A stretch of 64,000 bases of DNA from the NCBI GenBank assembly GCA_958496175.1, contig OY292278.1, positions 18,290,001-18,354,000 on the forward strand, given 5' to 3'. Under the pieces are notes generated by a model. The model saw only the letters and a program-made list of their open reading frames with translations. It had not been told where the DNA came from and ran no database searches. The translations under genes were made by a program, and so were the position numbers. Shown in pieces: positions 10,282-63,836 of this stretch (position 1 is the stretch's first letter; the number at the start of each line of letters is the position of its first letter). The stretch is from Sisyra terminalis (taxonomy: Eukaryota > Arthropoda > Insecta > Neuroptera > Sisyridae).

Positions 10282-10493
10282 GAGATGATAGAATTCGAAT
10301 CTCAGCTTTTCTTAAATAAGAAGACGACAATTCAGGTTGTATAAGATCAGTTTTTTTATTTAATATTTTTTAATATTCAAATTAGCTACGTTTCATTACG
10401 TATCGTAACTTCATCAGGCTTCTTGAATCACAAAAAATGTAATAGTTTCAATTTAAATTCAATAAATTTCAAATTTATTGAATAGTCCGCTTT
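10282..10493 (-). mobile_element. Hammerhead-type retroposon, single arm
   Basis: This insert in the foldback's left arm matches one arm of the palindromic elements at 13.8, 19.8 and 62.8 kb: gatagaattc near one end, aagaagac, caattcaggttg, then the hammerhead core and a tail ending near ttattgaat. Its limits come from comparison with the uninterrupted opposite arm. No clear target-site duplication is visible. Confidence 0.75.
10384..10423 (-). ncRNA. Hammerhead-ribozyme-like motif, 10.4 kb
   Basis: On the minus strand the parts occur in type I order: AGC (stem I), CUGAUGA core, one extra A, stem II GUUACG / CGUAAU around AUA (one G-U closing pair), GAA, self-complementary ACGU (stem III), A as the cleavable base, then GCU (stem I). 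All pairings are read directly. Activity is inferred, not shown. Confidence 0.55.
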
Positions 10494-11279
10494 CCAACTT
10501 GAGTTTCTTATGGAAATAACGTGGGAAAATGTAATTTGTTCTTTAGAATTCCGTAACTCAGCGACAAATCAAAAGTAACTATTTGTGTCGTATTTATTGT
10601 AAATTTAACGCTCTACAAAAAAGGGCTCTTATGATTTTTCGCTAAATCTATTACCTTAAGATTTATTGGGTTAAGAATGCGGCACTATTGGTTATTGAAA
10701 ATATAATGCATTTTTTGAACTAAGCAACGGAAAGATGGTAGAGTTTAGTTATATAACTAATATTGAATCTGACGACAATGTAAAAGTACAAAAAATGAAC
10801 GATGAACTACAGCTTAGTCGTGAAAAATCACAAAAATAATAATGTATTTGCTTCTTTTTGCTCAAAAACATAAATTTTGCATAAGAAATTTGATATATTT
10901 CGTAAAAATAAGTATTTACTTTATAATTATAGTTGATAATATTAATAGTTAAACTTTGAGCTCGAATAACTCTTAAGCCAATAGATTTAGCGAAAAATCA
11001 TAAGTGACCTTTTTTGTAGAGAGTTTAATTTACAATAAATATGACGAGATTAGTAACTTTCGATTTATTTGTCGCTGAATTATGGAATTCTAAAGAACAA
11101 AATTTAATTTTTCCCACGTTATTTCCATAAAACATTTAAGTTGGAAAGTGGACTATCTTAAAGTTAATATTAAGAACTTAAATTTTCAGGGATTTTTTTT
11201 TTTATTAATTTGGAAGCATTTTAGCCCTTGAGAGCAATGAATTTAAAAGACACCCCTATTAAGAACCACCCTAATGTTT

Positions 11280-13355
11280 AAAGTGTATATAAAAGTCAAT
11301 ATAAAAGATAATACCTTGAAATAAATAAATAATTACCACAATTGTCAATGTTAAACGTCAAACCTGAAAATGTTATTTTATCCTACCTAATGATAGCCAC
11401 GAAAGGTACAAAATGTTGCCGAATATTCGTAATTCGGTAATCGGCCAAATTACTATTCGTAGCATATATAATATTTACCTACCAATTATAAAGATAAAAT
11501 AGAAATTGGGCAGCTAAAGTTTTTGAGCTAATTGAGTCGATTTATATTTTAAGCGCCAATTTTAATTTCTAATTAAACAGTGCGACTATTAAAACTTTCA
11601 GTGGCGACAAAACTCGGAAATTGATGTCTCACTGTTAACTTATAAATTCATTGCAACTGGCATAAAACCGAAAATCAAATAACGATTACGCTTTTGATTA
11701 AAATTTTGTACAACTATTTATAAATTTTATATTTTTTTATCAAAAGAAAAATGATAGAATTTTCAATAATTTGAATTTCACGTGTAATCATAGAGAATAT
11801 AAAAAATCGGCAATATTTTTCGTTTAAATTTTTTTCTATCACTTCTGATATTGACAATTTCATTTTTTTCCATTTTCACATTTAAACATTTCATTAAATA
11901 TTTCAAAATTAAATGTGATGAAAAAAAAAACGTAAATATTGTTTCAACATTCAATAACACTCGATTAGTTTCTAAAATATCTTTTGATGGATAAAAAAGA
12001 ATTACAAACCCCTCACCTTCTTGTATTTTTAATAAAGATACTTCAAGAGAAATATTATATACATAATACAGATAAATCTCTGGAGAAAAATTAATACATC
12101 TATATAGAATCTTCCCCGTGCTTCCCGAGCCTGCTCGTGAAAAGGAAACAAGTAAATCGTTTTAATTTTTACTTTTCTTTTCCCTCGGTTTATAAATCGA
12201 AAGAAAGATTAAACACAAATTTTTCAAATCGTTCCTGTCTCTATCGCGCCATGTTTTATTATCGTTGAGCTTTTTTTAAAACGTATAACTCACACCAAGC
12301 TTTACGACTTGTCTTTTTTCTCCGATCCAGTCTAGCGGAAATTTGTGCTTCTGTCAAAGTGAAAAATGCCGCTTCAGTTCAATTTATAGTTTATTATTTT
12401 TTAACGATAAATTAAATATTTGGAAAAATATTATATTTGCCTCATCGTCGAATTCAATTTACAGATTTCTCTACAATTATTCACCTATAGCCATATTTCA
12501 ATTCCCAATAAAACACAAGTTACACAAGAACCATATTCTAATAAAAAAATACTATAACTTTAAACTTGACCAAACTGTTACCATTGCTAATTACTATAAT
12601 ACGTATTTTCGATTGAATCTATTTGCCATTTTTTTTTGCAAAAGAAAATGAATATTAATGGCAAGGAAAGCGTATTATACTAAGTGGATTAAATTACCTT
12701 TATCATAATAATAGTGTGGCATAATCGCATTCACAAACATGCCAGATAACGTCGTAATACGAATGTCTTAATTAAAGAGAGGAAAATTCATTTCACTGTA
12801 TGTATTTTCCCTCACATTACGTATTATGGGTGTTAGTCGCGATTATGTTGTCTGGAGATGATGAAGATTATGATACTGTCCAGGTGAAACGTATTCAAAA
12901 TTATGATAATGTTAATGAAACAATTGTCTAGATGTTATTGCACCAAATGCAAGTATCTAGAGAAAATTTAAAGCATCTTTGCATGTGAATTTCAGTAGTT
13001 TTTACGAAGGTTAATGAAGAAACAAGTACATAAGCAAAACTCCTTTTTCTTTTTTCTTTTTTCTTAGTTTATTTTTTTTCCTTCTACTAAGCATATATTA
13101 AGGATAAGTTTGAAGAGTTTGATGTTTCGGTTTCAAATACCGGTAAATATCTTAATTAATTAGCGGTGTACATAAATGCACAATAAAATATGTTAATTAA
13201 GGATGGATATTTAATTTTTATATAGGTGATTTGCACGCCAGATTGTCGCAAAAAATGCATTAATGAAGTCTAAAACGACATCACAAGTATGTAAAAAATA
13301 GAATTAAAAACACCAAATAGCGAACATTTTACGATTAAATAAGTAAATTTAATTA
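11280..13355. other. AT-rich stretch, nothing recognised
   Basis: No domain, RNA gene or duplicated block that I can support. Open frames near 11778-11960 and 12343-12651 are low-complexity and have no recognisable product. Confidence 0.4.
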
Positions 13356-13359
13356 TTAA

Positions 13360-13805
13360 TTAATCTTTTCTTTGCTTTTGATGGACGTCCACAGTTAACT
13401 TTTTGTCCTAAAGGAATACATTCAGTTTCCTTAGGGACTTGATTTTTTTTTCAAACAGATTAGAAGACCCAACAAATGCTTACACTTATAATTTTTTTGA
13501 AATATTGGACATGTATAATTACATTTATTGATATTAACATCTATATTAAACGCCCAAGTGCCATGAAAACTGTGTTCAAAATCTTTAAAAGTTATACAGT
13601 CTTTAATAACACATTTGGTTACCAAATCTGAAATTTTACTTTTATAACTCGAATTTGAAGTACATACCTTAAAGGTATTATCCATTTTATTATTTTCTTG
13701 TTTTGCAATGCCCAATGATAAGATTTGGTCCAATCTTTTAAAGTAACTGTTGGTTTCACAGATTTTTTTTTGCAGCATAGCTCTGGGTTTCTGTCTGTAG
13801 ACCAT
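13360..13805 (-). pseudogene. Mutator-like (MULE) transposase C-terminus with SWIM zinc finger
   Basis: A minus-strand frame of 124 codons ends in W-A-F-N-I-D followed by a SWIM-type finger, CNYTCPIFQKNYKCKHLLG: two cysteines, then a C-K-H. SWIM fingers of this form sit near the C-terminus of MULE transposases in insects, where they probably help bind DNA. The frame stops at 13431. In a second frame just beyond, the sequence continues VPKETECIPLGQK and GRPSKAKKR, the glycine-arginine-proline basic tail that normally follows the SWIM finger in these proteins. A slip in the run of nine A/T bases near 13445 joins the two frames, so this is a frameshifted pseudogene. The DDE catalytic core is missing; the fragment ends where a hammerhead-type element begins. 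A host SWIM protein is less likely because of the tail and the context. Confidence 0.7.
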
Positions 13806-13938
13806 TTAATTAGTAAATACTATAATTTATTTACAAATAGATGATAAAATTCAGATCTCAGCTTTTATTTTAAATAAGAAGACAATTCAGGTTGTTTAAG
13901 ATCGTTTTTTTTTATTTAATTTTTTTATTATTCAATTA

Positions 13939-13978
13939 GCTCCGTTTCGTTACGTATCGTAACTTCATCAGGCTTCTT
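13939..13978 (-). ncRNA. Hammerhead-like motif, degenerate arm, 13.95 kb
   Basis: Minus-strand twin of the motif at 14059. The core CUGAUGA, stem II GUUACG / CGUAAC and GAA are intact, but stem III reads ACGG instead of ACGU, losing the self-complementary stem and the U16.1-H17 cleavage site. Probably inactive. Confidence 0.45.
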
Positions 13979-14058
13979 GATTCACAAAAATAAAGTATTT
14001 TAAATTTATATTTATTTATTGAAGTTAAATTGAAAATATTTTATTTTTGTGAATCAAG

Positions 14059-14098
14059 AAGCCTGATGAAGTTACAATACGTAACGAAACGTAGCTAA
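14059..14098 (+). ncRNA. Hammerhead-ribozyme-like motif, 14.06 kb
   Basis: AGC, CUGAUGA, A, stem II GUUAC / GUAAC, GAA, ACGU, A, GCU, all in type I hammerhead order on the plus strand. One stem II change relative to the 63.07 kb copy falls at the loop boundary and shortens the stem by one pair. Confidence 0.55.
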
Positions 14099-14284
14099 TT
14101 GAGTAATAAAAATATTAAATAAAAAAACCGATCTCAAACAACCTGAATTGTCTTCTTATTTATTTACAAATTGGGAAACAGATTTAAGAAATTGAATTGA
14201 TTCAATTTTTATCAAAAAAATTTAAATTTTTTCTTAACTATCGGTTTGAGATGATCAAATTTTTGATTTTTTTGATATTTGTAG

Positions 14285-14600
14285 CTTTTTTTTTAGTTAG
14301 CACCCTTTTCTCCAAAATGAACCAGATTAAAATATCTACTGGGTTTACGTCTGGAGAATGTCAGAACCATTGTTTTGCCGAAATTAAATCCGAATTGTTG
14401 TTTTACAATCATTCTTAATTACCGCGAGCTTTATAAGACAATACGGAGGCGTATTGAAACGTCCATCGTCTGTTGTTGAAAGCTTATATACCCACGCTTT
14501 TAGGGCAGCTTTCAGAATGTTTTCGAGTATTACACCACATTTACTTTGACACAAATCTCAAGGAAAATGATTGAAGGACCATTTTTAGGGGTTATTGATG
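14285..14600 (-). pseudogene. Mariner-family transposase fragment
   Basis: Cut-and-paste transposase remnant, unrecognisable as a single frame but clear when the three minus-strand frames are combined. In order: IIFLEICVKVN, RRWTFQ, SYKARGN with E-L nearby (matching the TFQQD..HKA..QEWL block of mariner transposases, where the second catalytic Asp lies), then W-F before HSPDVNPVDILIWFILEKRV. The last is the SPDxNPxD block that carries the third acidic residue, followed by the usual L/I-W...LE..V helix. At least two frameshifts and several stops are needed, so it is dead. The plus-strand frame over the same bases (14197-14418) is only its antisense shadow. The lineage within mariner cannot be fixed. 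Confidence 0.65.
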
Positions 14601-14669
14601 TTTGAATCATTACCTGTGGTAGATGTCGCTTTTTGGTGTCCAATCATTGGTTCAAATTATTGTGTATGA

Positions 14670-17600
14670 ATTTAGTCAAGTTAACATGATCGTTTAGTTT
14701 AATGTTTTAATTTATAAACTGTTCTGTTGGAAAATTTTTCTCTTTGGAAAATGCAATGCTTGAAAATTGTGTACTTTCGATTAAATGAAGCAACTCATTG
14801 GTTAGTTTCAAGTATGTTTATAAACAACCATTTCAAAGAATGATAAACCGTTAAGTTGTTACTTATCAATTTTTCAAATGGCTGTTATATTAGTATTTAA
14901 ATATTTATTCTTATTTATAATTGCATACACTTTAAGTGAATAATATTTATAATGATTTCAAATATGATTTTTAAATCAAAAACTAATTTACAAGGACTGT
15001 TTTTTGAATTGCATTTTTTTGTAATCTTGATACCAGCTTAGTTATATGTTGTCATTAATCCATATCACGTTAAGGAGTAGTTACTGAGTAGTTTACTTAA
15101 AAATTAAAAACCTTTAAACCCCATATGCTTTACCTATTAAATGGCACGCTCCCTCCAGAAGATGTTGGAAGTTGAAAGTGTAGAATAGTCTGTATCGACA
15201 TTTGAAGACGCTGTTTGGCATCAAATGTGATCAAAAAGGTTTCTAAACGACAAACGTTGACCCTTAAAAACTTTTCAAAATTTTTAGAACTTCTTCTTTT
15301 CTTCAAAAGCTCAATGATCAGAAAAATTGTAAGAAAAACCAACATAAAAATCAACAAATTTTTTAAGCTGATAAAATAATTTACCAAAAGTGTGATTTTT
15401 AGCGAGCTGAATTTTTGAGTAACTTTCTAAGGTTTGTGTACTCGGTGCGACGAGGAAAGACAAGTGGGAGCAAAAAGGGAAACGACGGAAAAATGAATGA
15501 TCATTAATATGTAGGTTCTTGAAAAAATAAATGGCAACGAAAATTAACCACTGTTAATTTAGTAGTAGTAATAATGTAGTTAGTTTTTGGTGTTGGTGAT
15601 GGTAGTTATAGTAGGGAGTTTTTATTTAACTTTATTTGAGCATTGAATTATTATTTTCAGTATATTATTGCTTTATTTATACAATTATTTCGGAATAAAT
15701 ATTGATTTCTACTTTTAAGTTGTATTGTTTCATATATAAAAGAAACCTGTCGGGATCATTCACCATAAATTGTAGCACGGTATACCTAAGTCCGTATGTA
15801 TGATATTACCCCTAACATAACATGGTATTTCAATTGTTATTCTTAGGAAACTATTTTGGAACGCATGTACCTTCACCGTATGGGCATAATGATTGCCATA
15901 TACATAAGTAGCATAAGTGGTAATGAGAGATGAGATTAATTTTTTTTAATTAATTTTATACTATGAATAATTCGATTAAACAGGAAATGTAAAATTATTG
16001 TTTTTAATATTTTAAAACAGCATCAATCTGGCAACAGAATCATTCATTCATTCTATATTACAAAAAAATCAATAAATCAACCGTAAATTCAAAATTTGAA
16101 TAAATAGAACAACTTTATCATTTTCAATGCCAAAAAAGTTTCTTGAAAGCTTTACAACTTTATACACTACAATGTTATTTTAACTGAGATGGAGCCTTCA
16201 ATTGATTTCTTAGAAGTAAGCTTATGAATTCGATATTTAAATATCTGATACAAAATATTAATTTATTGTTTTCGAAGTATTCAAAAGTTTTTACGCAATC
16301 CAATTCTAATCGAATGAAAATATTGGTGTTTGAAAAAAATGTTTATTTATTACAAAGATTAACGTAACTTTGCTATTAACTATAAAATAAAAATCAAATT
16401 ATATCATTAAAAAATTTAAAAAACCGTAAAATTAAATTATAAACGTTCATGTAAATAGTTTTCAGAAGTTCAAGTTATAAAATCTGAAATAATGAAGAAT
16501 GGAAAAGAGATTTGTTTGAAAATTAAGTTAAAGTTCGAGTTCGGTATCTTAACTTTTTACAAAATTTTAAAGTTTTTCTTTTCTCTGCATCAAAATTGCT
16601 TTATAAAAGACTTTATCTGGTCAGAACTTTCCGTAAGTTTACATGAAAATGATGAATATATGGTTGATAGTTTTATAAAATTTCAAAGAAAATAGTGAAA
16701 ACTTGTTTTTCAAATTGCTTCGTTTCCGTTACTTAAGCTTCGACTTACTTAATTGTGTAATCAATGCAAACAAAATTGAAAATGTTGATTTTGTCACGTA
16801 ATCACAACTTCACCATAAAAGATAGTTTTATACTTGCTACCCCAACATGGATCTAGAAGTTTGAATAATAATCTCGCATCGACATAAGCAGTAGGCCATG
16901 ATTGAAATTATTCAAAGCCACCCTTAATCTCATATCTTCTAAACGATCAAATTATGCAAAATAACCCCGCTTTCAATTAATCCGCAATCACCGCCAATAT
17001 GAGCTTGTCTCTCCACTAAAGCTCCGTATATAGGTAAATATTGTCAAAAAGCGCATCAGGAGTTGCGGAAGAAGTGAAGCGAGGTGTCACTGTACTGTCG
17101 TGTTTGACGTTATTGAAAATGTTTTACCGCTATTTTAAATTCACTGAGCGTTTTTAACTCAAGGGGTGGCCACACCATATGTGGTAGTGTCAGTAATACC
17201 AATATGGAGGAAAAACGTGTTCATATTAAAGGCTCATTATGTACGTGTTTTACGACAGCAAAAAGACAATCCTGTGGTATTCCACTTCGTGGCAGTCGAG
17301 TCGTGTCTTCGATACTTGCGACATGGGAAAATAGAGGATACAAGACTATTAGTCCATGGGATTAGTATGTGTTCATAGGGCTTTCACATGCAAGTGATCG
17401 TCACTAAAAGTCGTCATGAATAAAAATCAGTATATGAAAAAAAGTGCTGCATATGCACATTGGAAGTTATATTTTTTTAATATAATACGAAAATAGCTTT
17501 CATCTGGTCATTTATCGACCTTTTTGTGAACCATTTGGATGATTTTTCTGACCGTTTCGGTATCATATTGAAAAAAAAACGGTCAAATCATTTTTTTGAT

Positions 17601-18035
17601 CAGTACCATAATAAAAACAGGAAAAATACCCTAAGGGCTGGAAAATTTTCAGCCCTCAAAATTTGTCATTTAGAACCACTTTCCATCACATACGGTAGAA
17701 GAAAGCTTAACAAACAGCATCCAAATATACTATACCATCCCTTTGATTCTGATCCCTTTCTGGGAGGCGAAAACTACTAGATAGATTCATGGTTTTCCAC
17801 AATATTTACACAATTATACCACTGGAATCAAACATATTCAGAACAAAATTTAGTGTATATGCTGAGCTTCATTTGGTTCCTAAAATACGGAGAAAAAAAT
17901 CCTATAACTCAATCAAGTGTTAACAAACTAGTGCGTAAATTACTAAAGGTATATGGTACGATAAGAATAATTCCGTTCTAATGATATAAGAATATCACTA
18001 GTACCATTTCGTGTTCAAAACTTTAGGGTTACTTT
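14670..18035. other. Long stretch without a supportable gene
   Basis: Contains short open frames at 15130-15387 (minus), 16492-16695, 17166-17378 and 17526-17780 (plus). None shows a domain that I recognise with confidence. Base composition is less AT-rich around 16950-17400, without splice or coding periodicity that I can defend. Confidence 0.35.
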
Positions 18036-18040
18036 ATTGA

Positions 18041-18630: not shown

Positions 18631-18717
18631 TGTGAACCCAAACTTCCTTCATACTATTAACATAGTATTGAATTTATATAAAGTCTCTCTTTTCTGACCC
18701 CTAAGGTTTTCTGAAGG

Positions 18718-19419: not shown

Positions 19420-19459
19420 CGCAACGTTTCGGTTCTTTATTTGACCTTCATCAGGCTTC
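19420..19459 (-). ncRNA. Hammerhead-like motif, 19.4 kb
   Basis: Minus strand: stem I GC / GC (only two pairs), CUGAUGA core, stem II GGU / ACC with a long loop, GAA, ACGU, U as H17. Its arm sequence differs from the 10/14/20/63 kb family, so it is a separate lineage. I see no matching second arm here. Confidence 0.45.
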
Positions 19460-19703: not shown

Positions 19704-19832
19704 CTACAAATATTTTGATTATTAATTTTATGTGTTGATCAATAATATTTAGGAAGATTAATATTAAAAATTAATGAATATGGCAATGAATCTTTGCTCC
19801 CAAGTACAGATTTTATTGAATTTAATAAGAGC

Positions 19833-20202
19833 TGATAAAATTCAGATCTCACCTTTTATATTTTTTTAAATAAGAAGAAAGTTCAGGTTATTTAAGATCT
19901 TTTGGTTTTTTATTTTTTATTTAATATTTTTATTGTTCAATTAGCTACGTTTCGTTACTAATTACATTATATTATAAAAGAGTTACAAAAATTTTATATG
20001 ATCTATATTATATGTATTTTATTATAATTTTGAAATTTATGTATGATTGACATATTTTGTAATTATTTTAATTTGTTATAGAAGCCTGAGGAAGTTACGA
20101 TTAGTACGAAACGTAGCTAATTGAACAATAAAAATATTAAATAAAAAATAAAAAACAAAAAGATCTTAAATAACCTGAATTGTTTTCTTATTTAAAAAAA
20201 AA
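19833..20202 (-). mobile_element. Palindromic hammerhead-type retroposon, 19.8 kb
   Basis: Same family as the 13.8 and 62.8 kb elements: gataaaattcagatctca, aagaag, gttcaggtt, agctacgtttcgtta on the left; the mirrored arm on the right ends in an A-rich run. It is flanked by a perfect 10-bp direct repeat, taataagagc, at 19823-19832 and 20203-20212. The left arm's hammerhead is cut off after the GUAAC-GAAAC half (about 19941-19959); the right arm keeps a complete motif. No protein encoded. Confidence 0.82.
20082..20119 (+). ncRNA. Hammerhead-like motif, 20.1 kb
   Basis: AGC, CUGAGGA, A, a weakened stem II (GUUAC...GUAC), GAA, ACGU, A, GCU. The core and stems I and III are intact; stem II has lost a base on its 3' strand relative to the 63.07 kb copy. 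Confidence 0.5.
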
Positions 20203-20214
20203 TAATAAGAGCAC

Positions 20215-22605: not shown

Positions 22606-22609
22606 GTTG

Positions 22610-26742: not shown

Positions 26743-27040
26743 TTTCTTTTCTTCATTAATTTTTGTAGCACAAGAATCAACCATGGTTCTTCGAAGGCTA
26801 GATCCACACTTCTTTCTATAACTAAATCTTGTACAGGTCAATTATTTTTATCCTTTTTTGTTTATTGTAAAACTTTTTCAAAGGAAAAAACTTTAGTTTT
26901 GAAGGCGAAGTTTAATGAGCTTTAAAATATTTTTTTCATTTGATGTAAGGTTCAATTCCAGTGTAAATAACAACAATAATAATATCAGGTTCACGGGTAA
27001 TTGGAATATATTTAAATTAATTTAAACAATCATTGATTTT

Positions 27041-27078
27041 GCGACGTTTCGTCTTTATTATCAAGACTTTTTCAAGCT
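27041..27078 (-). ncRNA. Hammerhead-like motif, divergent core, 27.05 kb
   Basis: The stem II pairing GUCUU / AAGAC, GAA, ACGU and C as H17 are intact, but the core reads CUUGAAA instead of CUGANGA. The twin on the plus strand (27401-27443) has the same change, so it is family-wide. Catalysis is doubtful. Confidence 0.35.
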
Positions 27079-27400
27079 CTGAAAGTATTACAATATTAAA
27101 ATTATAACAATATTTTTATAAACAGACCTCAACTATGTTTAAACAATCGTTAGTTAAAAAATATAAAATTAAAATTAAAAAAACGATTTTTAGCTTTAAA
27201 GTATGTATTTTTTTAACAAGTCTAACATGTTTTCAGTTGGCTGTTAGACTTGTTAAAAAAATACATACTTTAAAGCTAAAAATCGGTTTTTACTGTTTTA
27301 ATTTTAATGTTACATTTTTCGTAAGTAACGATTGTTTAAACATAGTTGAGGTCTGTTTATAAAAGTATTGTTAAAATGTTGTTAATATTGTAATACTTTC

Positions 27401-27443
27401 AGAGCTTGAAAAAGTCTTGATAATAAAGACGAAACGTCGCAAA
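27401..27443 (+). ncRNA. Hammerhead-like motif, divergent core, 27.4 kb
   Basis: Mirror twin of 27041-27078, with identical stem II, GAA-ACGU-C, and the same divergent CUUGAAA core. Confidence 0.35.
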
Positions 27444-27889
27444 ATCAATGATTGTTTAAATTAATTTAAATATATTCCAATTACCCGTGAACATGATATT
27501 ATTATAATTTTTTCAGTTTAAACCAACCTCATTAAGGCAGGAATTAATAAATTACCTAGTAAATAATAGTTAATACCTTTATGCGTCTAGCGTTAGCATG
27601 GAAATGCAGCTAAAAGCTTTTCTTTTCTTCATTAATTGTTTGTAACACATGAGTTGTAACTCAATTATTGATATGCAATGGCTAGATTTACAACACATTT
27701 CTAAAACAAATCGATTATACTTACCCTTATATGTTTATTGTAAAACTTTTTCAAAGAAAAAATTGCCAGTTTTGAAGGGTCAGTTTGTTGAGCTTTATTA
27801 TAATTCTTTCAATTTAAATCAACCTCATTTATTAAGGCTGATAATAATATTAATAAGTTGCCAAGGAAATAGTAGTTAATATCTACACA

Positions 27890-30275: not shown

Positions 30276-31115
30276 AATTATGTGGTAAAAGAGGAAAACA
30301 AAAAAAAAGCTCTTTAAAATTTGACTACAATTTTCTTGTTTACTTAGAGTAAGCTAGAGCTTACTTTAAGCTATAGTAAGCTGGAGCTTACTTGGAGATA
30401 CTAATAAAATTGTGGTCATATTTTAAAGAGCATTTTTTTTGTTTTCATCTTTTACCACAGGTAATGCTGTACAAAGCAGTGCTCAAACCAACATGGGCAT
30501 ATGGGGTCCAACTCTGGAACGTGGCAAAGCCCAGCGACATTGAAATGATCAGAAGATGCCAAAGTAAAATCCTTCGGTCATTTCTTGGAGCTGGTCGATA
30601 TATCAGGAATGACATCATTCAGCGGGACCTAAACGTTGAGGATGTCATTCAATTCATTACGGAGCTCATAATTCCATACGTAAAAAGGGTGGAAGAACAC
30701 CCAAACAAGTTGGCCTTGGGAACAATAAATGAATCCCCCCCACAAGAGACTAAAAAGAGGGGACATTAATGTTTTCTTGTAATTTTAAGAAGGTTAAACA
30801 ATTTTTATCAAGCCGTTGTATGGTTTTAGATTTTATGTCTTGTTTATTTTTTTTTCTTGTACATAGTTGTTAAGATTTTTGCCACCATTGTTCCCTCATG
30901 ACGATGGTCAGAGGAATGTAAATATTTTATAACTTTGTAAAGTTGGACCGTTGTAAAGTTGGACGTAGGCTAGGGACCCTACGGGTTCAATTCCTACCAA
31001 ATAAATCAAAAAGTTAAAAAAAAAATCTTTTACCACATAATTTAATTCTTCATTTCGGCATTATTTATTCCAGGTAAGGCTCTTAAAATCGGGTAATCTA
31101 TTCCTCTTCTCTATA
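30180..31115. repeat. Foldback of the RTE 3' end, interrupted by Jockey E
   Basis: The left arm (30180 to about 30340) carries the RTE tail: gaatagattaccc, ttttaag, tgcctggaataaat, gccgaaatgaagaattaaat, atgtggtaaaag, gctctttaaaat. The right arm is the exact mirror, made of 30410-30459 plus 31038-31115, once the Jockey insertion is taken out. The loop (30341-30405) contains agtaagct / agcttact repeats in both orientations. So the 3' end of an RTE LINE has become an inverted duplicate. Confidence 0.8.
30460..31024 (+). mobile_element. Jockey-type LINE fragment E, 5'-truncated insertion
   Basis: Open RT C-terminus from about 30461 to 30769: LYKAVLKPTWAYGVQLW, RRCQSKILRSF, YIRNDIIQRDLNV and a final ETKKRGH. 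Then comes a 3' UTR of about 250 bp and an A run (31012-31025). It is bounded by a perfect 13-bp duplication, atcttttaccaca, at 30447-30459 and 31025-31037. Frame intact over the retained part, so fairly recent. The residues encoded upstream of 30460 belong to the target, not to the element. It is a different Jockey family from A, B and D. Confidence 0.92.
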
Positions 31116-46910: not shown

Positions 46911-47562
46911 TTTTTTTTTTTTTTTGTGGACTATTATGTATTTTGCACCAGTTCAGCGATGTGTCGCTATATTATGGTGGTGATGGTAGGCAATTGGTCT
47001 TTAGCGGCGTTTAAGTAGCTGGAGGAGTCGAACTTCAATCCTCTGTCTTTTGTATTTTTTTATTTGTTGATTGATTCTTGATCTTGTGGTCAAACATCTA
47101 TTCTTTCTTGGAGCTCTTGTGGGAGTTTCCGCTTCACTCTTCTATGATTTATGGTTTCTCCCAAGCCTAGTTCTATTGCACTAAAACAGTTTTCTAGGCC
47201 GTTAAGGAAGTTCCTTGTGAGTGCGGTTAGAAAGTTTTTTAAGTATGGGACGTTCATTTCGTGATGAATTTGGTTGTTTCTCACATACCATGGAGCTTTA
47301 GTGATGATTCTCAAGACTCTATTTTGGAACACCTGTAGCTCATTATGATTTTTCTTGGAGGATGGAAGCCAGACTGCGCAAGAGTATGTGAGAAATGGTC
47401 TAATGACTGATTTGTATATCATCAATGAACATTCCATACTTAGGCGAGACCTTCTGTTGATAAGTGGTATAGTTGGATGAGTCGAGTGTTGGTTTCTCTG
47501 ATTTTACTTGAGATGTGGTTTTGCCAGGTTAATTTCGAGTCCAGAAGTATACCCAGATATAG
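46911..47562 (-). mobile_element. Jockey-type LINE fragment D2
   Basis: Second copy of the family at 21.5-22.3 kb. From 47562 down: YLGILLDSKLTW, HISSKIRETNTRLIQLYH; a one-base frameshift near 47455; then NRRSRLSMECSLMIYKSVIRP, SCAVWLPSSKK, FQNRVLRIITKAPWYVRNN, LNGLENC and LPQELQERID to a stop at 47090. The 3' UTR ends in 15 T (46911-46925), a poly(A) tail on the minus strand. 5'-truncated within the RT. The 346-bp open part (47090-47437) is better preserved than in D1. Confidence 0.9.
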
Positions 47563-50069: not shown

Positions 50070-50970
50070 AAATTATTTCTTGGTTTGCAAGAATTTAAAG
50101 ATCGTATGGTTTTAATGTCTAAGAAATCAAAGATCAGCATTTTTACTCGTGAATAGGTAAATCATATGCTTATTATAGCTATTTAACACATCAAATTTAT
50201 CTTTTAGATAAATTCTACACATATCACTATTCTAAGGTGAAAATACGCATATTTTCTCTATTCTCCGATTAAGTTTTATCTAATAGATAAATGCCTGTAT
50301 GTATATGTGAAAATTAACCCTTAAGGTAAAAAAAAACGAAGGTCTGGTCAAAGAAAAAAAAATACGGTTTTTCATTACCGAAGATTAAGCTATTTGAGTG
50401 GTTAAACTTCTTCTTTCAATGTTATCTCCGGAGAAGTTTCTCTGGTCAATGTGGTTAATTTTTTTCTTAAGTATGATAGGTGCAAGGTGTTAATTCTTCT
50501 TTAGTTTTTCCAGTTTTTCTTCTACAATATTTATCTAACATTAGTAGGGTTCCTAACAGAATGCGATCTATCCAAATAATTATTTTTCCTATCACCACAT
50601 TGATGATCTTCGATGGCTTCTCATTACTTTTACGATGGTAATTCAATTTGTATAATTGCTCTTTTTTATTCTTCTCCACCTCAAAAATCAAAGCTCGCTA
50701 GATACTTTCGTTCTAGTTTTTCCTAAGCATATAGAACTTTAATTTTTCAATGAATACAAAGGATCGGAAAGTAAATTCTAAGCTAATTCATTGGCATTAA
50801 CATGTAATAGTAGATAATCTCTTTTGCTTGTTTTTTATAGTTGCAGGACACAACAGAAAAAATAAAACAGAACACGTCAAATTTTCGTTGGCTTAGTTCC
50901 ATTTGATTTAATTTTTTCCGGTGAATTTTGAAGCAATTGGCATGTGTATACTAAGTTCCAAGTTATGTAA
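50070..50970. other. No gene recognised
   Basis: A 74-codon minus-strand frame (50467-50691) has a basic C-terminal half but no domain that I can name. AT-rich elsewhere. Confidence 0.35.
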
Positions 50971-50974
50971 TTTG

Positions 50975-51215
50975 GTTAATACAGATTCTTAGAGGACTAG
51001 GATCGAAATAAGCTGTTAAATCTCGATTTTTACTCGCGACGTTTCAGCTCCTTTATTGGGGCTTCTTCAGGCGTTCATAAACAATCGCTTTAACTTTGTC
51101 AACAATAACCTTTGTCATGATTTATTTTTATAGATATGATACAGTTGATAAAAAGCAATAATAAAAAAAATGATAAATTTCGATCTTAATCCTCTGAGAA
51201 TCTGTATTAATCAGT
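50975..51215 (-). mobile_element. Palindromic hammerhead-type element, 51 kb
   Basis: The outer arms ttaatacagattcttagagga and its mirror (tcctctgagaatctgtattaa) enclose one hammerhead-like core on the minus strand near the left arm. The layout and the cttaatcctctga / gaggactaggatc blocks resemble the 57.9-58.4 kb element, of which this looks like a shorter, one-core relative. Confidence 0.65.
51035..51074 (-). ncRNA. Hammerhead-ribozyme-like motif, 51.05 kb
   Basis: CGC (stem I), CUGAAGA core, stem II AGCCCC / GGAGCU with AAUAAA loop (one mismatch; here the extra A of other copies is paired to U), GAA, ACGU, C, then GCG (stem I). All elements are in type I order. Confidence 0.6.
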
Positions 51216-55005: not shown

Positions 55006-55009
55006 TTCT

Positions 55010-56055: not shown

Positions 56056-56058
56056 GTA

Positions 56059-57041: not shown

Positions 57042-57188
57042 TACTTTAATGTTATATCTATTGAAATGCAAACAGCAGAGCTTAGGAAACCTTCTATTTA
57101 TGAAAAATAATTTTTATAATTATATTAATAATGTTTCCACTTTATACCTATAATCAATTAGCCACTAGGTCTTCACCCATTAAATATC

Positions 57189-57283
57189 GCGTAAATTTAT
57201 GATATTTCTCGATTTACGGATTTTTATTAACCGTAGAGTCACTAAAAACCTGGGCAGTTATAACGACGGTAAATAACAATTAA
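57189..57283 (+). mobile_element. tRNA-derived SINE, copy 7, tail only
   Basis: Plus-strand copy of the SINE body: gatatttctcgatttacgga, tttttattaacc, tagagtcact, ttataacgacggtaaataac. It lacks the A and B boxes and ends in an A-rich stretch. Confidence 0.7.
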
Positions 57284-57289
57284 AAAAAT

Positions 57290-57855
57290 TACCATTTCTC
57301 CATTAACTCCATTTACTACTACTCGTTTTTTATTGCATTCCATAGATATTTGGTTCTTGGTTTTAGCTACTTCCGTATAGCTATAGTTCCGTACTATACT
57401 TCCGTATGGATTAGTACCACTTTCATAATCATTGTCTATCTACACAATTTCATTTTCTGATTAATTGTAAATTGGATCAACTATGGAGACTTTTTGATAA
57501 AGTATATACCAACCAGTAATAAATTAACAATTAAATTTAGTTAATTATGAATTACGCGATATATCATTTTGTCAAAAAATGACCTTACATCACTTTCAAA
57601 ATAAATGAAGTAAATATCGTAATAAATATGTTTTTCCAGTGAAAAAGTAATAAAACAATAGAGTGGGTTTCTCAAAAATCCTATCCGTAGCGGATATTGC
57701 GAACCTTGAGGGACAATCTTATTTTATCATCCTTATGGTGTACCAAGTTCGTATGTATTTTTCAGCCAGATACTTTCCTGTATAATGAGTTATAATACTT
57801 TTTTTTTTTAAAAAAATCTTTTATTACTGTAAAGTTTCAGATCCTCAATGATGAT
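57290..57855. other. No gene recognised
   Basis: AT-rich, nothing supportable. Confidence 0.4.
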
Positions 57856-57920
57856 AAATTGGTAAACAATATTCAGAGGATTAGGATCAATAATAATTAG
57901 TCAAAACTATTTATTACATC

Positions 57921-57959
57921 CGCGACGTTTCGGCCCGGTTATTGAGCCTTCCTCAGGCG
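57921..57959 (-). ncRNA. Hammerhead-ribozyme-like motif, 57.9 kb
   Basis: CGC, CUGAGGA, A, stem II GGCUC / GGGCC with AAUAACC loop region, GAA, ACGU, C, GCG. Minus strand, reading outward from the palindrome centre. Confidence 0.6.
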
Positions 57960-58293
57960 TTCGTAAATAATCGCTTTAACCTTGTTAAAGACAATACTGA
58001 GCGGCTCGAATTTTTAAAATAACGTCATTTTTTAAATTTTTTAAATTAACTTCATTCCTTAACTAATTTTTAATTGTTTTTGTTGAAATTTTATTTTACA
58101 TATTTTACTGAAAAAATTTTTGTGTATCTTGGGAGTTTTATTATTGTTTTTTACCAACTATACCGTATAAAAATGAATGGACAATGATTGTTTTTAACAA
58201 GGTTATAGCGATTATTTACGATATGTAAGAACTCATTGTAATAATTGTTTATAATTTTTGATATTAATAAAAATTGGCTATGGTATTTCAGAA

Positions 58294-58333
58294 CGCCTGA
58301 GGAAGGCTCAATAACCGGGCCGAAACGTCGCGG
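58294..58333 (+). ncRNA. Hammerhead-ribozyme-like motif, 58.3 kb
   Basis: Exact twin of 57921-57959 on the plus strand: CGC / GCG stem I, CUGAGGA core, GGC..GCC stem II, GAA, ACGU, C. Confidence 0.6.
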
Positions 58334-58451
58334 ATGTAATAAATAGTTTTGACTGATTATTATTGATCCTAATTCTCTGAATATTGTTTACCAATTTACC
58401 TTTTATTACCTTCTATATATTTACAATTTATATACTATGCAATGTGGCATA

Positions 58452-59213
58452 GTTGTCTGGATGAGTTTCAGGGGAAAGAATTTGGGCATTAGGGTTAGGA
58501 TGGTCGATTAACTTGGAGTGGAATTTTTGGAATTGTTCTTGGACTAAGGTAGTGACAAAAGGAAAGTTGAGATCATTGTGTATGATTCGGTTGTTAACAT
58601 AATAAGGAGCATTGATTATTCGACGAAGGACTTTTGATTGGAAAGATTGGATAATTTGGATGTTGGATGGTTTTGCAGAGCCCCACAATTCTGCTCCGTA
58701 AGCCCAGATAGGTCGTAGTAGAGTTTTGTAAATGGTGAGTTTAGTTTTTATATTAACTGAAGATTTAGGTCCTAAAAGTCTACGTAATAGTCCGTATCGT
58801 TGGTTTAGTATTTGTCTTTTGAATTTAATATGTGGGTTCCAGGTTAAGTGGCTGTCTAGGTAAAAGCCTAAATAACGAACCTTGGAAGCAATTGGGATAG
58901 TGTCGTTGTCAAAGTAAATCGGAGGGTATGTCAGTCGTCTTAGCGTGAATGGTATCATCACACTTTTTTCATTGTTGATTTTTATCTTCCATTTCTGACA
59001 CCATCCCGAGATGAGATCGAGGTGGTACTGTAACGTATTGGTTGATTTTATGGGGTTAGGGTGGGTTAGTGGAAAGGATTGCTGTATCATCAGCATAAGT
59101 GAGAGTACAGCTATGTGGGTGAGTTGGGATATCGGCCGTATAAATGATGTAAAGGAGAGGACCAATAATACTCCCCTGTGGTACTCCAGCGAGAATAGGA
59201 AACGAAGTTATAA
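58452..59213 (-). pseudogene. Jockey-type LINE reverse transcriptase fragment A2
   Basis: Best copy of family A. From 59213 down: ILAGVPQGSIIGPLLYIIYT (RT motif B), DIPTHPH and TYADDTAILS with the catalytic Asp pair near 59084-59098. A frameshift near 59065 follows, then in the frame that runs to 58428: NEKSVMIPFTLRR, RYLGFYLDSHLTW, LTIYKTLLRPIWAYGAELWG, SFQSKVLRRIINAPYYVNN and HPNPNAQIL. Homology to A1 ends at 58452, so the last residues before the stop at 58428 are not LINE. The first 30 or so codons of the long open frame are out of frame with the RT and should be ignored. Adjoins an RTE fragment at its 5' end. Confidence 0.88.
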
Positions 59214-59735
59214 TATATGATATTTTCTTGGATTTCTCATGACGTTATCCAGGAATTCCAGCGTCCTGTTCTTTATCTTGAATAATACCTCTTTTTCTTT
59301 ACTTATTCTTTACTCATTATTTTCAAGATTTCCTCGTTTATTTTGTGATCAATTCACGGTATTTACGGTACTTTGAACCATAATTCGAAAGCTTTCAGCT
59401 ATTTGCATGATATCTCCAGTAAGATTCAATAATCCACCCCTTACAGCAGGTTGGAAAAGACATAAAAGACATAACATCGCAAAAGCTGTTAAAACTTTGT
59501 TCATCCTGAGGAGCTTTAAATCGCGCTTTTCCGATGCGACAATTGATCTCTATTGATTGATTCCAGTTTTCATTTATCGTAGTGTCCAAGCATTTCCAAT
59601 AAGGTTTCACTCTTTTGATTGGGTGATACTTGACAGTTAGCTTTTCGCCAAGATTTATGTAGGTAATCATAAATTTTGTCTCCTTGATGTTTGGTTTAAG
59701 TTTATAACCTTCACTGGCTGAAACTTCACCTTCTG
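59214..59735 (-). pseudogene. RTE-type LINE RT C-terminus, element G
   Basis: The minus strand reads GYKLKPNIKETKFM (the LxLNxxKTKFM block), VKPYWKCLDTTINENW and IEINCRIGKARF (the YKYLGTxINExW..EI.CRI.KAR block), then CKGWI. In further frames it reads DHKINEEIL, then EVLFKIKNRTLEFLDNVMRNPRKYHIL, matching the VTNEEVL...KTRKLEYLGHVMRNxKYxLL block. This is the standard order of the region after the RT palm in RTE-like proteins. Its PRKYH block separates it from family F. At least two frameshifts; a dead relic. It ends exactly where Jockey A2 begins, so one probably inserted beside or into the other. Confidence 0.75.
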
Positions 59736-59739
59736 AAAC

Positions 59740-61020
59740 TCTGTTAATCAGTCGTTGTTACCCATTCAGATTACTTGCAACTATTTTAGTATCTTCTGTG
59801 AATCGGATAATATGAATGCATTATCCATTAATAAAATTAAGTGTATTTTTTTAGAGATATGGAATATTTCCCACTGCACTTCTACGTTTTTAAATTCAAA
59901 GATCATGGATGATAAAATTCACAGTATTTTTGGAAAATAAATAATCGCTTGGAAATTTATAAAGGTATGAAATAATTTAATCTGCCAACGTTATTCTCTA
60001 CTATAAACCCTTCACCGTGCGTAGTCTGACACGTTCATGACTAGTTTTATAAATATTAGCAATTATATTCGATTTTCTTTCCTATCACTCGCTACTATTT
60101 ATTTAAAGCTGTAATCAATTGTAAATATCCTGAAATGTTTTACAAACAACAAAAAAATAAACAATGCTAAGTAAACGAACAAAGTTTGTAAGATTTTCAA
60201 ATTGATGTAAGTTTAATATAAAATCTGACCTGATTCGAAACGTTTCTAGTATTTAATAGTTTGTTTTTGTTTTCTTCTCTCCCGTGTTTTGTTTTATTTT
60301 TCTTCAACTCGTTGCTTTTTTGTTTATTATATATGAACACACACATACCTACCCATTTACTTTATACCAGGGCACCCGGTGAATAGAGTGAGGTTAGAAT
60401 CAAGGTTTTTATTCTATGCTTAGAGATCCGAATACATGTGAGTGCTGAAGGCGTAATAGTACGGGCTTGTTGGTTCTGTTACGCCCTAAAGCTGTTCAAC
60501 CAGACTGTATATCGATGTTAGTATGGGAAATCGGGAGAGCTTTCTGAATTTATATATCGAAAAGACGTGAGCGCACAACTCTGCGAATGAATGGTTAGGT
60601 GGTTGCTTATTTACTAAAAATACAAATCGCAGAAAATAAGGAAAATGTTTGCCGAGCATAACGTAACAGGATGCTCACTTGTTTCATCCAGGAGCATTTT
60701 GATTTTGTGTATGTGGAATTGATAAAATTTTCAAAGCGAGTTTATGAACGAAATTCATTTGTCGAGGGCTTAGGTTCGCGTTTGATAAACAACTAAGTAC
60801 CATTTATTTATTAATATGTTTTCAGGGAGGATTTAGGGATTATGTGCTGTGGAACACAGAACGTCAACTTTTATAATTATCGTGGTTGCTAAATACAATT
60901 CAATGTACGATTTAAAAGCCACTAAATGGTGCAGCTTGTTGGGTTGTTGGGGAGTTAAGAAGTGCGTGGTTGGAAAACATGGAATAAGTATGTATATAGG
61001 GTGTCTTAGTAAATAGGTAT
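59740..61020. other. No gene recognised
   Basis: A GC-richer stretch at about 60360-60720 has no supportable frame. The open frame at 59755-59940 has no recognised domain. Confidence 0.4.
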
Positions 61021-61025
61021 ATTAA

Positions 61026-61675
61026 CAGAATCCAGTAACTTCATCAAATTTTCAACCATAGAATTCTTACAAAGACATAGCCTACCAAATGCTTTCCTTT
61101 GATTTAAATTCATGTCATTTATTGTCATTTTTTGGAATAATAATTTTTTGCCTATAAAAATCGTAGAGCTTTTGAAGAAAAACAGATATAAATTTTTGTT
61201 TACAACATTCAGTAAAATAAAAAAAAATTAAGACTAGCCATACTTAATATTAGAAAAATGATTTAAGGCCCTATTAATCATACTAAACTTTACTTACTTT
61301 AAGCTTACAAGAAAACAGTAGCCAAATTATAAAAAGTCTTCTTTTATAAATAGAATCAAGTAGCAGTATTAAATTTTCAACCATAGAATTCTTACAAAGA
61401 CATGGTCTACCAAATCCTTTCCTTAGATTTAAATTCATGTCATTTTTTGTAATTTTTGGAATAATCATTTTTTCCCCGTAAAAATCTTAGAGCTATTGCA
61501 AAAAAAGGTAATAATTTTCGTTTAAAACATTCAGTAAAATAAAAAAAAAATAAGACTAGCTATACTTAATGTTAGAAAAATATTTTAAGGCCCTATTAAT
61601 CATACTAAGCTTGACTTACCTTAAACTAACAAGAAAACAGTAGCCAAATTATAAAAAACTTTCTTTTCCCGGTTT
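61026..61675. repeat. Tandem duplication, 325-bp unit, two copies
   Basis: Units 61026-61350 and 61351-61675 are highly similar: ttttcaaccatagaattctt, acaaagacatgg, atttaaattcatgtcatt, aaaacattcagtaaaataaa, aaggccctattaatcatact, acaagaaaacagtagccaaa. They are better conserved than the other tandem duplications here, so this one is younger. Non-coding; the minus-strand frame at 61283-61468 lies across the unit junction. Confidence 0.9.
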
Positions 61676-61704
61676 CTTCCTTTTCCAAAAAACTTTTTTG
61701 ATCA

Positions 61705-61820
61705 CTCCACTATATTTTAATCCTTACAGACTCTTTAAAGGAGAATAATCCATTTCTTTCTTTAATAAGGTAAGGATTTCAATCTATTTCCTTCCATTTT
61801 TCCTGGGCGTTCCAGTTTGG
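61705..61820 (-). pseudogene. RTE-type LINE tail fragment F4
   Basis: The minus strand reads IEILTLLKKEMDYSPLKSL, aligning with IKILDLLRREIDYPVLRSL of fragment F1, preceded by a TPRKNGRK stretch at the GPRQKRRKR position. Short and broken by a stop. Confidence 0.65.
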
Positions 61821-61959
61821 ATAAGAGTTTTTAGTTTAAAAAAAATACTCCTTGAATGCTCCATCAGAATCCTGGCCTAACATCGTACGTATATTTTTCA
61901 TTTTTTTAGATTTTTTTTTCTGTTTTTTACCTAAACCTAACGGAGGTTTACCACTTGGT

Positions 61960-62345
61960 TAGTTACCCGCTGGTATCCGCAAGTTACTCGTTTGGTAAAA
62001 TGCTTTTCTCCAACGTCGAATATTTCTGTCAAGTCTTTTCAAAGTGGGTTAATCCATTTTTTGTATCTATAAATTAAGGATCTCTATTCATCGTCTTCCT
62101 CTTTTCTCGTGAAACCTTCTAGTTTCCCTTCAAAAGCATTAAGTATGAATTCTATTATTCTTAAAATAACAACTCTCCAGACTGCGTTTCTTCTTATCCC
62201 CTTACCGTAGATAGTACTTTTTTCTTTGATTATTCTAAATATTTCTTATTTATTTCGTTATTCTTCTTTAATACTTGTCATAGTTTCTTAAATACTTGTT
62301 CTATAGGACATTGCTTATCAAAGCATAACTCTAACTATGCGGCTC
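61960..62345 (-). pseudogene. RTE-type LINE C-terminal fragment F5
   Basis: The minus strand reads EIFRIIKEKSTIY, RRNAVWRV, EFILNAFEGKLEG and, after a stop, KKWINP and KDLTEIF. These fit the NEEVL...EKS.I / KRR.NWIGH / FILNA.EGKLEG / RWIDDI / DLT.I succession of RTE-like C-termini. The EFIL...EGKL block matches F1. Stops near 62090 and elsewhere show decay. Confidence 0.6.
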
Positions 62346-62898
62346 CTCAGAGGATCTTGGAAAATAATTCTTTAATAGTAATTAATGGTGTATAAGTAAA
62401 ATATTGATGGTCACTAAAGTCTAAAATTTTTGGAAAAAAGAGTTTTGGATTTTTTTTTGTGCTTTAAGAGACCATGGTATGGACATTTTTGAGAAAACAG
62501 TATTCTGGAAAACAGGGTTTAGGGTTTTGATCTATGTATTATTAAACTCTACTCTTTAGCTACTTTAGCATTTTAGCTACTGCTTTCGGAATTTAGTCCA
62601 CAATTTTCCCATAGCAAAACTCGACTTAATTTTGCTAGTGGATTTTTCGTTTTTGGTAATTACTCTTTACTATTAGAATTGGGTCAAAATTTTTATTACT
62701 ATGTTTTTCACGCTTACTTATAGAAACATTTTTTTCTTCGATGTCCTCGAACGATCTCTCAATGTATTTGACAACTTGTACGATTTGATAGTGTATAATA
62801 TCTTAACAAAAGGAAGATATTACTTTAAAAAGTATAAGAAGACAATTCAGGTTGTTTAAGATCGGTTTTTTTATTTAATATTTTTTAATATTCAAATT

Positions 62899-62938
62899 AA
62901 TTACGTTTCGTTGCGTATCGTAACTTCATCAGGCTTCT
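62899..62938 (-). ncRNA. Hammerhead-like motif, weakened arm, 62.9 kb
   Basis: Core CUGAUGA, GAA, ACGU and A are present, but stem II has an A-C mismatch (GUUACG / CGCAAC) and the stem I partner reads AUU instead of GCU. Probably a weakened copy of the 63.07 kb motif. Confidence 0.45.
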
Positions 62939-63064
62939 TGAATCACAAAAAATATAATATTTTCATTTTAAATTCAATAAATAAAAAAAAATTGTTATTT
63001 TTGTTTTATTTTTTTTTATTTATTGAATTTAAATTGAAAATATTATATTTTTTGTGACTCAAGA

Positions 63065-63103
63065 AGCCTGATGAAGTTACGATACGTAACGAAACGTAGC
63101 TAA
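63065..63103 (+). ncRNA. Hammerhead-ribozyme-like motif, 63.07 kb
   Basis: The most regular copy of the main family: AGC, CUGAUGA, A, perfect six-pair stem II GUUACG / CGUAAC with AUA loop, GAA, ACGU, A, GCU. Confidence 0.6.
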
Positions 63104-63455
63104 TTTGAATATTAAAAAAAAAAAATAACCGATCATAAACAACCTGAATTGTCTTCTTATTTAATAAAAGCTGAGATTTGAATTTTATCATTTATTTAAA
63201 AAGTATCTTTTTCTCAACTGTTGCGTTTTAAATTTCAATTAAAATCCTATGTACTTTTTCAAATATCCTTTTATGGTAATAGATGTCTTCAGGAGAAATA
63301 ATTATTTGCTCCATTAATTTCAATTGTACTCATATAAGTTTATAATATATAAGATTATTGGTGAACCATATAAGATAATTATATCATATAAGATTATTGG
63401 TGACGAGTGATAATGAGAGGACGGTGAAATAGTAGAGAAAAACAAACTAAATGTA

Positions 63456-63836
63456 TAATCAAAATAAGATTTTTTCACTGACTTTGAACAGTTATACTGT
63501 GTATACAATATATAGGATATATTGCGGTCCAATTTATGTAGTATGATTTAATATAAAAATATATATAAATCATACCATAAACATAAATTTGAACAGAAGT
63601 TCAAACAAAAATATTCGTGACGTATTGCCCAGATACGTATTTCGATTGCCAAGCAATCTTCCTCAGTGGTCATCAAGTAGTTTGGATCACTCCGTAACTG
63701 CTTTGTGATGAATCATCACAAAACAGTTATAAAGTAGTCACAAAGCAATTTATGTTTATGGTATGATTTTTATATATTATTATATTAAATTATACTATAT
63801 AAATTGGACCGCAATATATCCTATATATTGTATACG
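63456..63836 (-). mobile_element. Palindromic hammerhead-type retroposon, 63.5 kb
   Basis: 381 bp bounded by a perfect 13-bp duplication, caaactaaatgta, at 63443-63455 and 63837-63849. The outer arms gtatacaatatataggatat, attgcggtccaattta, atggtatga-type blocks and ataaacataaat are mirrored around a loop of about 150 bp that holds one hammerhead-like motif. The arm sequence is unrelated to the 13.8/19.8/62.8 kb family, so this is an independent lineage with the same architecture. Confidence 0.88.
63628..63669 (-). ncRNA. Hammerhead-ribozyme-like motif, 63.65 kb
   Basis: CCA (stem I), CUGAGGA, A, perfect stem II GAUUGC / GCAAUC with UUG loop, GAA, an 8-base self-complementary stem III AUACGUAU, C, then UGG (stem I). 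Every helix differs in sequence from the other families yet still pairs, which is the strongest single piece of covariation here. Confidence 0.62.

Follow-up and report, generated by a model that had tools for sequence, protein, structure and literature searches.

What are the short hammerhead-like sequences that recur in a 64,000-nucleotide stretch of the Sisyra terminalis genome (assembly GCA_958496175.1, contig OY292278.1, positions 18,290,001 to 18,354,000; hereafter the window), and what carries them? A preliminary description of this stretch had listed at least nine loci sharing the motif, and our analysis found 13 sites, seven with a strict descriptor and six in decayed or relaxed form (Table 1). 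Very probably, these sites are minimal type I hammerheads, predicted to be self-cleaving, that lie mostly in head-to-head pseudo-long-terminal-repeat (pLTR) insertions of likely Penelope-like retroelements (PLEs) and that arose by the mechanism proposed below. The carrier elements, an intron-like insert and the outer part of stem I were added to the picture by this work.

The strict descriptor comprised the core CUGANGA with at most one mismatch, an optional extra base, stem II, GAA, a self-complementary segment, a base other than G at H17 and a stem I of at least 3 bp. It matched seven sites in the window (10417, 51070, 57956 and 63666 on the minus strand; 14063, 58297 and 63068 on the plus strand) and none in 60 dinucleotide-preserving shuffles, which bears out the motif sharing first reported. 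The decayed or relaxed versions were found at 13971, 62932 and 19454 (minus), at 20086 (plus) and as an identical pair at 27075 (minus) and 27406 (plus). The evidence lies in the combination of motif parts, because the core word alone was only mildly enriched (32 occurrences in the window versus a shuffle mean of 17.2, with 32 reached by one of 100 shuffles). The genome search covered 376.6 Mb in 11 contigs, with the window on contig 5, and its pattern counts are lower bounds: CTGATGA-N17-GAAACGT gave at least 438 + 438 matches versus 1 + 0 for the reversed-pattern control, and CTGAGGA-N12..24-GAAACGT at least 988 + 948 versus 2 + 5, or at least 2,812 versus 8 for both core patterns together. 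The Rfam hammerhead search that had been suggested as a check gave a negative answer, with no hammerhead in the window at the gathering score or at E values up to 10. Rfam also gave microRNA matches at 13.95-14.09 kb, which fall on the palindrome there and were rejected. A pattern scan of viral contigs returned two matches, both of which were judged to be chance because they are GC-rich and similar in sequence and because the match in L001, the only one with frames listed, is inside a 1,042-amino-acid frame.

The covariation of stems I and II that had been claimed from the window was weaker there than stated, with inner stem I pairing reached by 36 of 720 permutations and stem II pairing by 5 of 720 when one representative was taken from each of six groups, but it proved strong genome-wide. 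The genome-wide set combined the window with 40 fetched loci and held 76 sites (51 distinct hairpins and 38 distinct stem I combinations); the genomic sample is not random, as it consists mostly of chosen listed pairs or variants and of one set of single plus-strand hits, all from contig 1. Paired cells numbered 178 of 204 in stem II and 80 of 114 in stem I, where shuffling gave means of 125.4 and 62.5; two-sided changes numbered 65 and 23, respectively, where it gave means of 24.7 and 11.1. None of 1000 shuffles, which ignore relatedness, matched these values for either stem; for the number of pair types, 9 and 10 of 1000 did so. A chance-looking site (L044 + 351) was kept in the set. H17 was G in one of the 76 sites. 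The extra unpaired A after the core, presented earlier as a caveat, is indeed present and is the rule, being A in 48 of 51 distinct hairpins. Helix III was ACGT at 55 sites, ACGTGT at 20 and ATACGTAT at one, these three being the forms allowed by the search. It is not always palindromic as first described, given ACGG at 13971 and, in the commonest genomic family, ACGUGU, which is self-complementary only through G-U pairs.

In five of six copies, the minimum-energy fold had an inner stem I of 3 bp and an outer stem I, with an internal loop between them, and one of these five had extra pairs within the core; the fold of 63618-63680 departed from the pattern of the other five. RNAcofold of dimers found no shared helix III, cofolding being no measure of activity. 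The hammerhead shape might be a fossil, or a protein-binding motif that does not cleave, in which case the many decayed copies would be expected (for instance, stem I reads AGC/AUU at 62932 and the 27-kb pair lacks some core bases), and a published PLE hammerhead is described as inactive without protein (PMC11167929). This seems quite improbable, however, as families with different stems keep the core, the H17 rule and the pairing (CATCA/TGATG in L029; GCC/GGC and GACA/TGTC in L030; CTC/GAG and GTTGG/CCAAC in L036), and further families of this kind are seen in L037 and L043. The core, the H17 rule, the covarying stems, and the pLTR anatomy and GIY-YIG-like frame considered below support the original proposal to class the window sites as PLE-like minimal type I hammerheads, which have no helix III hairpin.

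Table 1. Hammerhead sites, carrier elements and insert in the window (TSD, target-site duplication; TIR, terminal inverted repeat)
Feature	Position	Strand	Remarks
Hammerhead, family A, intact	10384..10420	-	strict descriptor
Hammerhead, family A	13938..13974	-	decayed/relaxed set; helix III ACGG
Hammerhead, family A, intact	14060..14096	+	strict descriptor
Hammerhead, stem I AGC/GCG, weak stem II	19420..19457	-	upstream end TTTAG resembles an intron 3' end
Hammerhead, family A, stem II decayed	20083..20118	+	upstream TTATAG, the family A intron 3' end
Decayed hammerhead, left arm	27040..27078	-	core CTTGAAA
Decayed hammerhead, right arm	27403..27441	+	same sequence as left arm 27040..27078
Hammerhead, family C relative, intact	51035..51073	-	strict descriptor
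Hammerhead, family C, intron-less arm	57921..57959	-	strict descriptor
Hammerhead, family C, insert-bearing arm	58294..58332	+	strict descriptor
Hammerhead, family A, stem I broken (AGC/AUU)	62899..62935	-	relaxed set
Hammerhead, family A, intact	63065..63101	+	strict descriptor
Hammerhead with AUACGUAU in helix III	63629..63669	-	strict descriptor
Single pLTR unit in one arm of a TIR element	10283..10481	-	tail left; 26-nt palindrome at 5' end
Inverted pLTR pair	13839..14162		tail on left arm; TSD TTTACAAAT 13830-13838 and 14163-14171 (14-bp repeat counting overlap)
Inverted pLTR pair	19833..20202		tail on left arm; TSD TAATAAGAGC 19823-19832 and 20203-20212
Inverted pair, arms about 90% alike	26939..27507		tail left; possible low-complexity 8-bp TSD TTTTTTCA
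pLTR unit and short second arm of about 37 nt	50968..51213		TSD not found
Inverted pLTR pair, one arm with and one without insert	57828..58399		tail left; TSD CTTTTATTAC 57818-57827 and 58400-58409
71-nt intron-like insert, ATATGTAAG...TATTTCAG	58221..58291	+	family C arm of 57828-58399
Inverted pLTR pair	62836..63194		tail on right arm; TSD TTTAAAAAGTAT 62824-62835 and 63195-63206
Inverted pair, short right arm without hammerhead	63456..63836		tail left; TSD CAAACTAAATGTA 63443-63455 and 63837-63849

Inverted pairs with outward-reading hammerheads account for eleven of the 13 sites, all but 10283-10481 and 19420-19457; an inverted partner arm was looked for at the latter and none was found. 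Target-site duplications flank six window elements (9-14, 12, 10, 10, 13 and a low-complexity 8 bp), and in each of the six an additional tail of about 27-42 nt is found on one arm only. Within the window, the 12-bp, 13-bp and both 10-bp words occur only at the two ends of their respective elements. Flanking repeats of at least 10 bp were found for 7 of 19 pairs versus 12 of 342 swapped combinations, and of at least 8 bp for 16 of 19 versus 101 of 342; one repeat that beat the control (L020) is ATT-rich, and the best repeat found by this test at 62836-63194 is not the 12-bp TSD because the computed ends were too short. An inverted partner was found for 25 of 38 searched sites. We abandoned the idea that the predicted cut marks the end of short second arms, as 13 of these 25 partners start before the cut and 12 past it (at +3, +5, +7, +19, +19, +23, +28, +42, +44, +47, +50 and +51, some of these matches being weak). 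Individual elements differ in completeness: the left arm of 19833-20202 lacks the 5' half of the hammerhead, the arms of 63456-63836 match over 89 nt (94.6% alike over 92 nt) and this element holds a 35-nt palindrome at 63695-63729, and the partner of 10283-10481 is a 26-nt palindrome only (10457-10483). This last unit hit the left arm of a TIR-bearing element at 10159-11273, the right arm of which keeps a readable empty site, and no duplication is seen. A tandem-array scan of the window found no array at the hammerhead sites, which leaves the retrozyme alternative of the preliminary description unsupported. Among the loci viewed, the nearest thing to a tandem dimer is in L057, where two direct copies of the 63.6-kb-type hammerhead with ATACGTAT lie about 190 nt apart (5238 and 5430), together with one inverted copy.

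The carriers have inverted pairs, variable TSDs and a one-sided tail, as Penelope pLTRs do, and are likely PLEs. In locus L077, a 151-amino-acid frame (998-1450), the border between exon 1 and the insert (1677) and a hammerhead (1884) follow on one strand. The frame shares 47% identity, over 95%, with P0011, which scores just above the GIY-YIG cut-off (22.8 versus 22.6 bits), and is also related to P0015 (GIY-YIG); the N-terminal part of P0011 presumably resembles a PLE thumb. A frame of a similar kind, but shorter, lies upstream of the pLTR in L066. We consider it very unlikely that the carriers are foldback or miniature inverted-repeat (MITE-like) DNA transposons, that is, long terminal inverted repeats containing hammerheads and moved as palindromes by a transposase. 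The near-perfect palindromes with TSDs at 13839-14162 and 62836-63194 would suit such elements, as would the presence of other TIR elements nearby (10159-11273), but in place of symmetric TIRs and a fixed TSD length we found TSDs of 8-14 bp, a one-sided tail and unequal arms, some second arms being short. In addition, arms within a locus are each other's nearest relatives: in family A, each arm is closest to its own partner (94.5, 94.0 and 92.5% identity, versus 88.5 to 92.9% for the nearest other arm), and in the tree the 19.8-kb pair is supported (99/98) and the other two pairs are left open. This likeness fits a palindrome created at each insertion, or later homogenisation. Finally, copies differ by exact intron loss, which counts against a DNA transposon because such loss needs an RNA step.

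The intron-like insert provides this last point. In three families, as the upstream flanks show, insert-bearing and insert-less copies differ by a GT...AG insert of about 62, 71 or 202 nt, which has a single position within the 5' strand of stem I. With borders marked by slashes, the main family reads CATATTAAG/GTAWTTTAAC...GATTTTAG/AAGC (57-63 nt, and 76-77 nt in two divergent copies) versus CATATTAAG/AAGC, family C reads TTTACG/GTATGAAAG...TTTCAG/AACGC (70-71 nt) versus TTTACG/AACGC, and family A reads AATCAAG/GTATTTATT...TTATAG/AA (about 202 nt in L077 and similar in L066) versus TCAAG/AAGC. When 138 arms were classed, 80 were intron-less (30 in the main family, 30 in A and 20 in C), 19 had a complete insert (12 in the main family and 7 in C), 16 had the 3' splice-like end only and 23 were unclassed; two complete family A inserts were counted among those with the 3' end only because the script looked back 140 nt. 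Eighteen of the 19 complete inserts begin with GT (in 12 of them the search rule required it), and all end with AG by rule. Exact genome counts were 154 for the main insert border, 163 for the main joined border and 240 for the C joined border, with 0 for each reversed control. The GT...AG ends, the three unrelated inserts at one position and their exact absence elsewhere would be explained most simply by a spliceosomal intron and retrotransposition of spliced RNA. An insertion or a lineage-specific sequence block, instead of an intron, is an improbable source of this pattern: the window copy of the insert does begin with AT, its first position holding A as against G in all six of the other family C copies, the two arms of most pairs are in the same state, as expected of old subfamilies, and the intron reading is drawn from genomic sequence, but an insertion or block of this kind would have to account for three families with inserts of different lengths that share splice-like ends as well as position.

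The catalytic core lies wholly in exon 2, and 1-2 bases separate the end of the insert from the inner 3 bp of stem I. The end of exon 1 is able to pair 3' of the cleavage site, with ATTCAA/TTGAAT in family A, TATTAA/TTAATA in the main family, TTAC/GTAA in family C and CCCAA/TTGGG in L044. The mean energy of a copy's own outer pairing was -2.15 kcal/mol for 44 intron-less copies versus -1.01 kcal/mol for 1,290 between-family swaps, and -1.38 kcal/mol for 20 insert-bearing copies, 26 of 90 copies being unclear and left out. Because the likely intron lies inside stem I, splicing would be needed to finish this stem, and the pairing supports, without proving, that splicing completes stem I. We tentatively suggest, at somewhat less than an even chance, that in three PLE families unrelated introns split the hammerhead at the same point into an exon 1 that supplies the outer stem I strand and an exon 2 that supplies the core. 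If splicing assembles the full ribozyme in this manner, self-cleavage would be gated by splicing and the mature RNA would be cut; and if each arm is copied from its own RNA molecule, genomic copies would record the splice state of their templates. As a separate observation, the family A core CTGATGAAG (for example, at 63068) contains an ATG, from which a frame of 10 codons runs to just beyond the cut site.

A hint at how the two arms arise comes from 57828-58399, in which one joined and one insert-bearing arm are 98% alike outward of the core. These mixed arms point to two RNA templates, but the locus is one of 38 classed pairs (pairs with an unclassed arm were left out), and its insert now starts with A. 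The unequal arms and this mixed locus favour separate copying from both target strands, which is also the model preferred for Adineta vaga Penelope (PMC3846280). The alternative is self-priming, in which a single cDNA folds back at its end; we regard it as unlikely though far from negligible, and it could draw on the palindromes at pLTR 5' ends (63695-63729 and 10457-10483) and on the shared splice state of both arms in most classed pairs (27 + 2 of 38). It would not be expected to leave a spliced arm beside an unspliced one, or short second arms that retain the outer 3' end and lack the centre, as in 63456-63836, 50968-51213, L054, L055, L060 and L061. In L069, an arm at 1286-1418 (minus strand) exactly lacks the hammerhead, its flanks being joined at a 5-nt overlap, ATTAA, that is present in both outer stem I strands; a template jump across the folded ribozyme may have produced it.

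We propose the following as the likely course of events. The pLTR would be transcribed, and in some copies of three families the transcript would carry the insert that is seen in stem I. Splicing would join exon 1, whose outer stem I strand may pair downstream of the cleavage site, to the core in exon 2. Cleavage might then proceed through two ribozymes that share helix III or with the protein of the element, by analogy with published PLE hammerheads; such help would be needed because helix III is a short self-complementary stretch. The endonuclease/reverse transcriptase of the element would then open the target on both strands and copy RNA on each of them, beginning at either of two start sites that lie close together, a process that could yield the outward-reading arms of independent length, the one-sided tail and the staggered target duplication that are observed. 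Once inserted head to head, a copy would be read through into a transcript that pairs the ribozyme with its own complement: for 62836-63194, a single long hairpin of -188.5 kcal/mol is predicted, versus a shuffled mean of -51.9 kcal/mol. For this reason, head-to-head copies in place probably rarely cleave and are probably silent.

Several observations weigh against the scheme and the assignment to PLEs. The arms of a pair usually share their splice state, since both are spliced in 27 of the 38 classed pairs and only one pair is mixed, and 13 of the 38 searched sites have no inverted partner within 1.5 kb. A TSD was looked for and not found at 10283-10481 and 50968-51213, and the 8-bp TSD at 27 kb is of low complexity. 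The similarity of arms within a locus could also be explained by gene conversion. The support for the outer stem I is modest genome-wide and unconvincing in the window alone (42 of 720 permutations). The GIY-YIG-like frame was found in family A only, and a Pfam scan of the L077 frame itself was empty. For the ribozyme and for splicing alike, the argument is one from sequence.

The elements share features with several known systems. The minimal type I hammerheads of PLEs (PMC7761336, PMC6155905) are likewise of type I order, have a helix III of a few bases, are linked to PLE pLTRs, occur in thousands per genome and are suggested to act as dimers, but those described there differ from the present ones in the extra A, the modestly supported outer stem I and the intron-like insert in stem I. 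Penelope of Adineta vaga, as described in PMC3846280, has inverted pLTRs with 8-10 bp TSDs, a 31-bp tail on one inverted pLTR, palindromes of 18-38 bp at the pLTR 5' end, one insertion without a TSD and intron retention; the present elements differ in being short pairs without an open reading frame (ORF) between the arms and in having hammerheads, a word absent from the available text of that article. Poseidon PAc of Anolis (PMC11167929) also has a hammerhead at the pLTR, its reverse transcription starts at two sites one tail apart, and its purified protein is reported to cut and extend both target strands and to assist its hammerhead. That hammerhead overlaps the start of the ORF, which may be compared with the ATG in the family A core, and splicing is unmentioned in the available text. 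Metazoan non-LTR retrozymes (PMC7229834) are short, non-coding elements with type I hammerheads and a weak helix III, but they are described as tandem direct repeats of about 170-400 bp, whereas the elements here are inverted pairs. Among the titles and abstract openings listed by literature searches, none joined a hammerhead to a splice junction or to inverted PLE pairs, which does not establish priority. In a viroid hammerhead, De la Pena and Flores in 2001 reportedly found an additional nucleotide beside the core; the extra core-adjacent base is similar, but in the present lineage of genomic retroelements such a base is the rule. The ribozyme type was known already, and less expected are the inverted-pair anatomy, the insert in stem I and the signs of arm-wise copying.

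Other features of the window include a 124-amino-acid frame at 13431-13805 (minus strand) with a SWIM zinc finger (21.3 bits, cut-off 19.6), which is possibly transposase-derived, and a 322-bp unit repeated 1.9 times at 61046-61657. Four fragments resemble the C-terminal part of a non-LTR retrotransposon reverse transcriptase (2673-3460, 30380-30769, and 47090-47503 and 58428-59207 on the minus strand), and only the last has a Pfam RVT_1 match, which is below the cut-off. This fragment has 10 relatives, five of them from the water bug Ranatra chinensis (46-57% identity); the best-scoring named relative is filed under the bacterium Pantoea sp. Taur, a record that is probably contaminated.

The role of PLE hammerheads is called unknown in the available text of reviews, and an intron inside stem I would provide a testable answer, in which splicing could decide when the ribozyme is complete. 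Furthermore, the genome offers natural insertions in the hundreds, some spliced and some not, with arms both long and short, which would make insertion on both strands testable by counting. Because the Rfam models found none of these ribozymes in the window, similar ribozymes may have been overlooked in other genomes.

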